Assembly: GCA_031288185.1 (NCBI GenBank)
Contig: JAITRZ010000016.1
Coordinates: 1 to 51,050 of the forward strand
Origin: Coriobacteriales bacterium
GTDB taxonomy: Bacteria > Actinomycetota > Coriobacteriia > Coriobacteriales > UBA8131
Direction: 5' to 3'
DNA length: 51,050 nucleotides
Shown here: piece after piece, positions 17,224 to 51,050 of the stretch
Layout: each line of letters begins with the position of its first letter
Numbering within the stretch: the stretch's first letter is position 1
Position numbers and translations under genes: made by a program
The notes under the pieces: model-generated
The model's database searches: none
Seen by the model: only the letters and a program-made list of their open reading frames with translations
Told to the model about the DNA's origin: nothing

Positions 17224-18120
17224 TTATGCGCGTTTAGGCAGGGATGCGTTTGCCTGATTTTGCAAGCGCTCAAGAAGGACATAAAAGCCCAGCCTCTCCA
17301 GCTCGCCCTGCAGCCTTTCCACACTCAAAGCCTTAGTCATATCCGCCTTGACGTTTAGTTTAATGGGCGCATCCGTGCGAAATGTGGCCAACGTACGCGA
17401 AATGCGGGCCAACTCATGGCCAGCTTTCAGCTTGGTCTGCCAGGCCGGCTTGATCGCTTCGAGATGAGTGAAAATTTCCTCCAGGCTGCCGTATTTTTGC
17501 AGCAGGGTCGCAGCTGTCTTTGCGCCGATACCGGGCACTCCGGGAATAGTACGACCACTGTCGCCCACCAATGCTCTAAAGTCTATAAGTTGGTGGATGG
17601 AGATGCCATACTTTTGCTCAAAGGCAGCGATATCGTATTGCTCAATGTCCATAAAACCGCGCTTGATGGTAAACAGCTTTGTGTGAGGGTCAACCAGCTG
17701 AAGCATATCCAGCTCCACCGATAAAAGCAGTGACTGCGCACCCACCGTTTCAGCCTGTCTGGCCAGTGTCGCCATGATGTCCGTCGCCTCGTAGTCATCC
17801 AGTTCATACAGTGGCCACTGTAAGGCCGACAAAAACTCACGAAGCAACGGGACTTGAGCGTAAAACTCCGGTGGTGCTGGCTTGCGTCTGGTCTTGTAAG
17901 GGGGATAAATCGCTTGGCGCCAGCGCACATTAGTTTTTGGTTTGTCCCAGGCTACAACAACGTAATCAGGCTGGAGCTTATCTAGCAACTCCAGTGCAAA
18001 ACTGGAAAAGCCGTACACACCGCCAGCCGGTTGACCATCGGCTGTTTTAAGCCAGGGCATGGCATAAAAGCCACGATAGAAGATATTTTTGCCATCAATC
18101 AGGGCGAGTCGCTTAAACAT
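17224..18120 (-). CDS. 5'-3' exonuclease/FEN-like protein with altered metal-binding residues
   Basis: A stand-alone protein of 298 residues that follows the N-terminal 5'-nuclease domain of PolA along its length: LALIDG near residue 6, the arch-region YPPYKTRR near 75, the helix-hairpin-helix GVPGIGAKTAATLLQKYGS near 200. Several carboxylates that hold the two metals in Taq/T5-type enzymes are changed. EADD reads EATD, GDKDLLQL reads VELDMLQL, and GDSSDNIPG reads GDSGRTIPG. The first Asp, the WD of the second motif and the Glu of EATD remain. It is probably a paralogue with weak, changed or no nuclease activity that still binds branched DNA. No ribosome site is obvious before the ATG at 18120, and there are no operon partners. 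Confidence 0.75.
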   Translation of the reverse strand: MFKRLALIDGKNIFYRGFYAMPWLKTADGQPAGGVYGFSSFALELLDKLQPDYVVVAWDKPKTNVRWRQAIYPPYKTRRKPAPPEFYAQVPLLREFLSALQWPLYELDDYEATDIMATLARQAETVGAQSLLLSVELDMLQLVDPHTKLFTIKRGFMDIEQYDIAAFEQKYGISIHQLIDFRALVGDSGRTIPGVPGIGAKTAATLLQKYGSLEEIFTHLEAIKPAWQTKLKAGHELARISRTLATFRTDAPIKLNVKADMTKALSVERLQGELERLGFYVLLERLQNQANASLPKRA

Positions 18121-18303
18121 GGGTCTATTCTAATGCTTCACAGAGGTTTCGCTCAGGAGAAAGCCGTCGGCGACCGTTCACCCCTGTGCCCATAACGCGC
18201 AGGTGCCTGGCAGCAGGACAGATGAGTGGCCCTTTTGCCGCATGCCACCGGAGGCTGCTTGGGCTACGATAGAGCTCAGTTTTTGGGCATGAGCAAATAG
18301 GTG

Positions 18304-18474
18304 TAAGCACCACCAACGTGAGGGAAGGGCAAACGAGCATGGGACGTGACCTTCAGCTGCACACAAATTTCCGGAGGCTCATAGCTTAGTTCTTCTCCCA
18401 TCCACCAACACCTATGAGGGCGCGCATGTACGCGCCAAAGATGCCGCCCAGGCCCCTGCGCCAGGCGGTTTTTT
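18304..18474 (+). ncRNA. Candidate structured leader RNA with intrinsic terminator
   Basis: The first 72 bases (18304-18375) match an element at 50903-50970 with one indel in the core. Then follow three hairpins in series: CTCATAG (18377-18383) with CTATGAG (18412-18418), GGCGCG (18419-18424) with CGCGCC (18431-18436), and CCGCC (18444-18448) with GGCGG (18464-18468). The last is followed directly by six Ts (18469-18474), the mark of a rho-independent terminator on the plus strand. No protein gene on the plus strand ends before it, so a short RNA or a leader upstream of the prepilin gene at 18651 is the simplest reading. It does not clearly match a known riboswitch class. Confidence 0.45.
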
Positions 18475-18529
18475 GTACTCTGAAATAGGTTCTGGAGAGA
18501 AAAACGTTACTAGGACTGTCGCCAGCGTG

Positions 18530-18662
18530 GGCCCCTCGCACAGGGGACGCCGGCTCAAACACTCTGCGGCCTCGTCGCCTCGGTAGTTCTACCTCTCTTG
18601 CAACCCCTCAGCAGGGCTCCTCGGTCTGCGGAACTCACCGGACGCCCCCTGTGCGAGGGGCC
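18530..18662. repeat. 17-bp perfect inverted repeat, arms about 100 bp apart, overlapping the prepilin start
   Basis: GGCCCCTCGCACAGGGG (18530-18546) is repeated as its exact reverse complement at 18646-18662. The 99 bases between hold smaller hairpins such as GGTAG-TT-CTACC. The right arm contains the GTG at 18651, the only start codon available to the prepilin gene. A folded RNA would bury that codon in the stem. The repeat might also be a recombination or insertion element boundary. Confidence 0.8.
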
Positions 18663-19304
18663 TTCCACAATCCACCAAAAATACACAAACAAACTAACAC
18701 TACCGGCTTTACCCTCGTCGAGCTGATAGTAGTTATTGTTATCTTAGGTATCCTGCTCGCTATCGCCATACCTGCTCTTACCGGATACATACAAAAGGCA
18801 CAGGATGAGGAATGGAAGATGAAGGCCAGAGACGCTGCGCAGGCAGCTCGCACGGTCTTGGATGAGGCGTACACGAAGGGTGAGCTCACCTCATCAACCA
18901 CCTACCCCAATATATCTGACTACATCCAAAATGGGGAATCAGGCTATCAGACCAAAGTGTTCAATGTGCGGGGCATCTCATATCGCGCTGAGGGCGACCT
19001 TGTCTCCTATCTTCGCATCGCCTCCGTCTTGATGGGAAAGACTTATCCGGTCACCTACGGCGACCCTGGAACTTGGGACTTCTGGATCATCGGCTCCGAC
19101 ACCTCTACTGCGCTGGATGCCGATGGATTTGTCTATTACTTCTGTCCGGACGGCAACAAACCCAACTATCCATATATTGTGGTGACCTATCGGATGTTAC
19201 GGGTTAATGGAGCCGTCACCCAAAATGACATCTACACAGCGCTACAAACTTCCCCTCTCTACAGCGCTGAGGCGGGCTATGAGGTATATCACATAATTCT
19301 ATAA
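18651..19304 (+). CDS. Type IV prepilin-like protein
   Basis: A protein of 217 residues with a class III signal: a short basic leader ending in G, then FTLVELIVVIVILGILLAI, the prepilin peptidase site and N-terminal helix of type IV pilins and pseudopilins, with Glu at +5. The rest is a globular region rich in Tyr, Thr and Asp with one Cys. No ATG precedes the cleavage site. The GTG at 18651 is the only start and lies in the right arm of the inverted repeat, with no Shine-Dalgarno site, so the gene may have lost its own start or be a silent or recombining cassette. No assembly genes (pilB, pilC, pilD) are nearby. Confidence 0.8.
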   Translation: MRGAFHNPPKIHKQTNTTGFTLVELIVVIVILGILLAIAIPALTGYIQKAQDEEWKMKARDAAQAARTVLDEAYTKGELTSSTTYPNISDYIQNGESGYQTKVFNVRGISYRAEGDLVSYLRIASVLMGKTYPVTYGDPGTWDFWIIGSDTSTALDADGFVYYFCPDGNKPNYPYIVVTYRMLRVNGAVTQNDIYTALQTSPLYSAEAGYEVYHIIL

Positions 19305-50902: not shown

Positions 50903-50970
50903 TAAGCACCGTGAGGGAAGGGAATAACGAGCATGCAAAGTAGTCTTCAGGCGCACACAAATTTCGCCGG
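50903..50970 (+). repeat. Second copy of the element upstream of the prepilin gene
   Basis: TAAGCACC, GTGAGGGAAGGG, AACGAGCATG, CTTCAG and GCACACAAATTTC occur in the same order and nearly the same spacing as at 18304-18375, with one indel in the core and about three quarters of positions alike. It is followed by a run of 12 G at 50969-50980. The window ends before any downstream gene is visible; the final 70 bases hold no recognised feature. Confidence 0.75.
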
Positions 50971-51050
50971 GGGGGGGGGGTATTTATCTCCTAGCCCTCT
51001 GATCCCTTCTATAACCACCCCGCCCAAGCCCGCTTGCCAACAGTCGTTGG

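Follow-up and report, generated by a model that had tools for sequence, protein, structure and literature searches.

A 72-base block at positions 18304-18375 of a 51,050-nucleotide stretch of Coriobacteriales DNA (the window) lies 5' of a gene for a type IV prepilin and is followed by three perfect hairpins and a run of T residues, raising the question of what this element is and which process it serves. The initial annotation took the conserved block and terminator for a riboswitch or other regulatory RNA, and named the end of a lost mobile element as the alternative. Its description of the DNA holds: the block exists, and a whole-genome search finds a second copy at 50903-50970 (E 7e-9, 81% identity over 59 bases); the hairpins are formed by CTCATAG/CTATGAG (18378-18384 with 18412-18418), GGCGCG/CGCGCC (18419-18436) and 18443-18468; the T6 run (18469-18474) directly follows the third; the plus strand upstream of the block is gene-free; and a prepilin does lie downstream. 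Comparison with the rest of the genome leads to another interpretation, in which the element very probably forms the 5' switch of a single gene from a large, phase-variable and terminator-backed type IV prepilin family. The relevant features of the window are as follows.

17224-18120, minus strand: 5'-3' exonuclease gene, neighbour of the block
18304-18338, plus strand: 5' untranslated part of the A-type family block, with the Shine-Dalgarno-like GAGGGAAGGG at 18320-18329
18339-18389, plus strand: start codon and short frame read in the window copy, MGRDLQLHTNFRRLIA, stop TAG; homologous to MQSSLQAHTNFAGGGG... elsewhere
18373-18377, plus strand: site of the lost poly-G tract, GGAGG in place of G11-G14 by comparison with loci L002-L030
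18378-18418, plus strand: CTCATAG...CTATGAG inverted repeat, directly 3' of the tract site
18380-18586, plus strand: ON-frame remnant HSLVLLPSTNTYEGAHVRAKDAAQAPAPGGFLYSEIG..., with an extra A inserted at 18524 and the terminating TAG at 18584
18419-18436, plus strand: second hairpin, GGCGCG/CGCGCC, which encodes GA.VRA in the ON frame
18443-18474, plus strand: intragenic hairpin and T6 resembling an intrinsic terminator; family members read GGC GGT TTT TTG, G-G-F-L
18489-19304, plus strand: open prepilin reading frame, frameshifted relative to the leader
18530-18662, plus strand: long inverted repeat in the leader, arms at about 18530-18553 and 18638-18662
18705-18707, plus strand: G of the GFTLVEL cleavage motif, followed by the mature pilin (18708-19301), both within the frame 18489-19304
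50903-51050, plus strand: second family member in the window, with the block, ATG at 50933 and a G12 tract at 50969-50980

The window belongs to a 1.81-Mb MAG of 73 contigs that is 88.9% complete. When this genome was searched with positions 18300-18400, 40 matches were obtained, and these fell into two halves. The 5' half, present in about 15 copies, consists of a Shine-Dalgarno sequence, an ATG and 5-12 codons; the downstream half, which starts with CTCATAGCTTAG, is present in more than 25 copies and stands behind other 5' blocks as well. The halves are separated by a G tract, G10-G14 in most copies, which is absent at 18304 and kept at 50903. Three unrelated 5' halves were recognized, termed A (ATGCAAAGTAGTCTTCAGGCGCACACAAATCTCC), B (ATGTCACAAATTTCGCC) and C (ATGAGCGCGAAAACATCCAGAATATGCCC), and within the 15 aligned block copies GTGAGGGAAGGG never varies, with a distance of about 10 nt to the start codon in each. 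The plan of a locus is thus a Shine-Dalgarno sequence, an ATG, 5-12 codons, a poly-G tract and one frame that stays open for 40-144 codons into GFTLVELIVVIVILGILLAIAIPALTGYI. The two remaining frames close at once after the tract, as LIA-stop, S-stop, VFIS-stop or IYFLAL-stop, and in almost all loci of this genome and of the two relatives described below (G001 and G005) the frames other than the one leading to the pilin (ON) end within 1-19 codons. In the B- and C-type loci both OFF-frame stops are contained in the CTCATAG...CTATGAG repeat (CTC ATA GCT TAG; TCA TAG).

A census based on leader types alone yielded at least 43 distinct loci, a lower bound, since identically flanked loci were counted once and a few variant leaders escape the criterion. 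One frame is open to the prepilin motif in 32 of the 36 loci with enough downstream sequence, and a Shine-Dalgarno sequence and start are present in all pilin loci with a tract, 33/33 here and 22/22 in G001. Tract lengths, taken from the MAG consensus and possibly off by one, vary among paralogs with a mode of 12: G8 (1), G10 (1), G11 (6), G12 (24), G13 (9) and G14 (2). For leaders A, B and C alike, the common form is ON at G11 and G14. Seven loci have an ON length, 35 have an OFF length and one could not be assigned. This ON fraction lies below the simple expectation of one third (7/42, p 0.02; 2/22 in G001, p 0.01), although little weight is given to these p values as the loci are paralogs and the counts are not independent. 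Architecture, frames and tract lengths, all read directly from the DNA, are those of contingency loci: a homopolymer tract stands in the 5' part of a frame with its own ribosome-binding site and start, of every three length classes, one connects start and product and the other two stop early. Many contigs of this genome (G000) end at these loci (C9, C13, C17, C57, C62, C64 and others); since repeats break assembly, the true copy number is probably higher.

Several other features accompany the 5' ends. In B- and C-type loci, short direct repeats (AAGACAGGCACCACC-like) in varying number separate the presumed promoter from the start codon, as at about 1400-1477 in L018. A TGTGCTAYYAT box, which resembles an extended -10 promoter element, lies about 75-100 nt before the tract in most A-type loci and in about half of the G001 loci (8 occurrences in the upstream DNA of this genome against 0.22 expected from shuffles); it was not found before most B- and C-type or G005 loci.

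The leader between tract and pilin reaches 100-144 residues, which is unusual for a prepilin. Differences at codon positions 1, 2 and 3 are 0.22/0.24/0.27 in the long leaders of this genome and 0.35/0.27/0.43 in G005, a bias weak enough to indicate that the leader peptide itself is little constrained. What persists is an open frame and not a particular peptide, which would fit removal of the leader by cleavage. Most long-leader loci contain, in frame, a palindromic segment with arms GGCCCCTCGCACAGGGGACGCCGG and CCGGACGCCCCCTGTGCGAGGGGCC (window 18530-18662) that is missing from short-leader members and resembles a REP-like repeat inserted without disturbing the frame.

Against this plan, the copy at 18304 is an A-B hybrid, with an A-type 5' block ahead of B-type downstream DNA. 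In an alignment with L021 the extra A at 18524 is a single inserted base; it puts the leader out of the pilin frame, so that no tract length joins start to pilin, and the sole near start of the pilin frame is a GTG at 18651 without a visible Shine-Dalgarno sequence. We therefore read this copy as a decayed, locked-off family member that has apparently lost its tract and acquired a frameshifting base. The copy at 50903 is of an A sub-type with two extra bases before the tract, for which G12 is the ON phase; its ON frame, MQSSLQAHTNFAGGGGYLSPSPLIPSITTPPKPACQQSL..., is interrupted by the contig end before reaching a pilin.

The product of the window gene has the signature of a type IV prepilin. 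It matches Pfam N_methyl (E 8e-7) and TIGR02532 above its cut-off, and carries the G/FTLVE cleavage motif followed by a hydrophobic N-terminal helix (residues 22-75 in the model). An AlphaFold model (pLDDT 91) consists of one long N-terminal helix and a sheet; phmmer matches to solved pilins cover mainly the N-terminal helix region, and a Foldseek search of the model against the PDB gave no match at E <= 0.001. When 15 members drawn from three genomes are aligned, GFTLVELIVVIVILGIL.A.A.PALTGYI is invariant and the body variable; the median mature-domain identity within this genome is 19%. Machinery for pilus assembly is encoded as well: one gene cluster holds T2SSF (PilC), PilM-like, PilB and PilT genes, the PilM match being weak and below cut-off, and a prepilin peptidase (Peptidase_A24) is found in the genome. 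In three loci (L083:150-2132, L100:3330-4913 and L089) the prepilin N-terminus is fused to a large C-terminal part, containing DUF6273 in L100 and, by eye, LRR/BspA-like repeats in L083, which suggests switchable adhesin-tipped or minor pilins.

Relatives with the same plan were found through a search for poly-G tracts; an exact DNA pattern had no match in GTDB contigs, a result that reflects the lineage-specific nature of the flanking DNA. The LysRS places the genome in Coriobacteriales, not with Patescibacteria/Saccharibacteria: it is 73% identical to that of the best named relative, MAG Nm470_bin152 (G001), of the same genus, and about 65-71% identical to those of other Coriobacteriales/Eggerthellales MAGs. 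Tracts of at least ten G number 52 in G001 and 62 in Gx485_bin20 (G005), which represents another genus of the same family, and these genomes contain 22 and 14 prepilin loci, respectively, with the same plan and different flanks. The pairings of G001 with G061 (Nm470_bin152) and of G005 with G077 (Gx485_bin20) were made through coinciding tract positions. At least five further loci follow it in G030 (genus g5). Few such tracts occur in most other family members and in the rest of the order, apart from a few tract-rich genomes such as G007 and G043. Six loci of G001 and G005 (L176, L183, L203, L214, L217 and L245) have open frames of 500-760 aa directly after G10-G17 tracts, several of which look like surface proteins, repeat-rich and cell-wall-binding-like; other post-tract proteins are oxidoreductase-like (L179) or ATPase-like (L214). 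Poly-G phase variation may thus extend beyond pilins.

The initial annotation regarded the third hairpin and its T-run as a terminator. The hairpin is indeed terminator-like and apparently under selection, but it belongs to a coding region and not to a non-coding RNA domain. A hairpin that ends at a T-run between tract and pilin, with 5 or more pairs in its stem and a dG no weaker than -8, is kept in 27/33 loci of this genome, 20/22 of G001 and 11/14 of G005, 58/69 in all, although the leaders have diverged. Energies in this genome are mostly -10 to -17 kcal/mol. The hairpin lies about 50-90 nt 3' of the tract, and the T-run typically follows the tract by about 91 nt (83-153 nt in G001, 104 nt in G005). 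Were coding constraint alone responsible, synonymous changes should break the hairpin; when codons within the leaders were permuted synonymously 100 times, the mean numbers of retained hairpins were 8.5, 10.1 and 3.6 (maxima 15, 15 and 7) in this genome, G001 and G005, and the observed counts exceed all 100 permutations in each. Stems and loops vary between genomes, and also within G001; six short-leader loci of this genome have no terminator. Over positions 18290-18480 taken together, predicted folding is unexceptional (z -1.3). In 57 of 59 loci both OFF-frame stops precede the hairpin, so that an intrinsic-type terminator stands 3' of a short translated frame whose stops lie upstream of it. 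This is the arrangement of an attenuator, and is expected if ON-frame translation must pass the hairpin for transcription to continue. The hairpin is likely to be a translation-dependent attenuator, with OFF frames exposing the terminator.

These features lead us to propose a model whereby the shared 5' module, comprising the Shine-Dalgarno sequence, ATG, a few codons and poly-G tract, would open each gene, and slipped-strand mispairing in living cells would alter the G count. At one length in three, translation from the start codon would run on into the pilin frame (ON); at the rest it would stop within a few codons (OFF). In the ON state the translating ribosome would cover the hairpin and transcription would proceed; in the OFF state the ribosome would leave before the hairpin, which would then form and end transcription, so that a switch of frame would be a switch of transcription too. 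A cell would in this way display on its pili a changing subset of dozens of different pilins. The more specific proposal that a single family, in at least two genera, uses exchangeable 5' cassettes of start, poly-G tract and intrinsic terminator as a 'contingency attenuator' is one to which we give about an even chance of being correct.

The exchangeability of the cassettes is suggested by the mosaic structure of the loci. Post-tract DNA distance and mature pilin distance are uncorrelated (Spearman rho -0.03), and in 9 of 19 B- and C-type loci the nearest downstream neighbour carries the other 5' type. Of the N-helix DNA, 97% is common to L002 (type A) and L100 (type C), whose mature regions are 89% identical although their 5' modules differ. 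Such a pattern indicates that 5' modules were exchanged among loci. MutS was not detected in this 89% complete genome, in a search that was positive in 11 of 14 control genomes; this result is in keeping with many Actinomycetota, and a missing MutS would favour tract instability.

Other explanations of these loci have been considered. The order of conserved block, terminator-like hairpin and pilin gene is what a c-di-GMP or similar riboswitch with its terminator would present, and the OFF state would likewise yield a short terminated transcript. Yet the block has no Rfam match, the only match in the window being a tRNA; among its 15 copies two-sided changes affect none of the 7 predicted pairs, with a consensus energy of -0.8 kcal/mol; and what it contains is a Shine-Dalgarno sequence, an ATG and codons. 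It has no sequence or structure match to the c-di-GMP classes GEMM I/II. Moreover, the unrelated leaders A, B and C all precede pilin genes, B and C sharing a downstream region, and nearly all copies with enough sequence read into a pilin in one frame. A structured regulatory RNA is thus extremely improbable, and on these comparisons we are confident that phase-variable prepilin loci should replace it as the reading. The idea of a mobile-element end is rejected from comparison of the copies, which showed no common insertion-sequence boundary and share only the gene start, followed, with few exceptions, by a pilin gene of their own where the contig suffices. Antigenic variation by recombination, with the loci as donor cassettes and the poly-G tract or 5' module as a crossover mark, has a precedent in the guanine quadruplex at Neisseria pilE, and it would account for the mosaic of 5' modules and mature pilins as well as for the hybrid copy in the window. 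It is nevertheless unlikely: in contrast to silent promoterless cassettes, most copies come with a Shine-Dalgarno sequence, a start and an intact frame of their own; a sole expression site was not seen; and the mosaics point to past exchange rather than a dedicated switch.

Two further readings retain the tract as the source of frame changes. Long homopolymer runs followed by a stem-loop can favour slippage during transcription, and CTCATAG/CTATGAG directly follows the tract in the B- and C-type loci of this genome; slippage by RNA polymerase, or by the ribosome, on a tract of fixed length would give a mixture of ON and OFF messages in every cell. Near-identical paralogs differ in tract length (G10-G14), however, as replication slippage would give, and the similar layout of Bifidobacterium pili has been shown to switch by replication slippage (PMC9187656), making this alternative improbable. 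The remaining reading, of plain contingency loci in which slippage switches translation only, with the hairpin and T-run incidental to coding or a by-product of module copying, is a less probable but serious contender. The loci within one genome are paralogs sharing a 5' module, the T-run encodes a recurring F-L, and 6 of 33 loci of this genome lack the terminator yet keep the frame open. Arguing for a terminator that is itself selected, stems, loops and codons differ in G001 and G005, where a hairpin and T-run still hold a similar position; the Leu codon of the T-run is nearly always TTG or TTA, as against 15-19% of Leu codons in the mature pilins; and hairpin numbers surpass every synonymous permutation, as described above.

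The best-known cases of homopolymer-tract phase variation come from a few pathogens. The loci described here would provide at least 40 loci per genome for predicted switchable type IV pilins in one uncultured Coriobacteriales lineage, to our knowledge among the largest single-family repertoires, and a terminator immediately following the OFF stops would offer a simple route from a frameshift to a transcription switch. If the 'contingency attenuator' is real, dozens of diverse type IV pilins would be independently phase-variable in both transcription and translation, and each cell would display a shifting subset of the repertoire. No report of phase-variable type IV pilins in Coriobacteriales was found in the open-licence literature, where such switching of type IV pilins in this order, the number of loci involved, the terminator and the shuffling of 5' modules all appear to be unreported; poly-G phase variation of pili is already known from the sortase pili of Bifidobacterium.

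Each known system shares part of this arrangement. The c-di-GMP riboswitches GEMM I/II can precede pilin genes and end in a terminator, as the Coriobacteriales element stands before a pilin gene and ends in a terminator-like hairpin; unlike them, the block is protein-coding. At Neisseria pilE/pilS, gene conversion transfers silent cassettes into one expressed locus; many pilin copies, a conserved N-terminal part, a variable body and a G-rich element near the 5' end are common to both, but each Coriobacteriales copy has its own start and tract. The termination site in siaD of Neisseria meningitidis, a capsule gene, is Rho-dependent, unlike the Coriobacteriales hairpin, which is of intrinsic type and conserved across a gene family. 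Nevertheless, siaD, for which poly-C phase variation with intracistronic transcription termination is described in Lavitola 1999 as cited in PMC3025981, is the nearest precedent for termination induced by a frameshift: there a frameshift through homopolymer slippage leads to premature termination within the gene, as is proposed for Coriobacteriales. Campylobacter jejuni NCTC11168 has 29 poly-G contingency loci (PMC4965091), likewise tens of G-tract loci per genome, there switching surface functions; they belong to many gene families, whereas the Coriobacteriales loci mostly represent one prepilin family with shared 5' modules. The nearest known system is the G-tract ON/OFF switch of sortase-dependent pili in Bifidobacterium breve (bbr_0113 and bbr_1889), for which replication slippage has been measured (PMC9187656). 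Both occur in Actinomycetota, and in both a poly-G tract lies between a short upstream ORF bearing a Shine-Dalgarno sequence and the pilin frame, which slippage joins. In Bifidobacterium, transcription beyond the OFF stop is low, and the authors describe termination as dispersed, through polarity, with arguments against any specific terminator (PMC9187656). The pili there are of the sortase/LPXTG type, encoded by one or two clusters per genome, whereas the Coriobacteriales loci encode type IV prepilins, number in the dozens and carry a conserved hairpin and T-run after the OFF stops.
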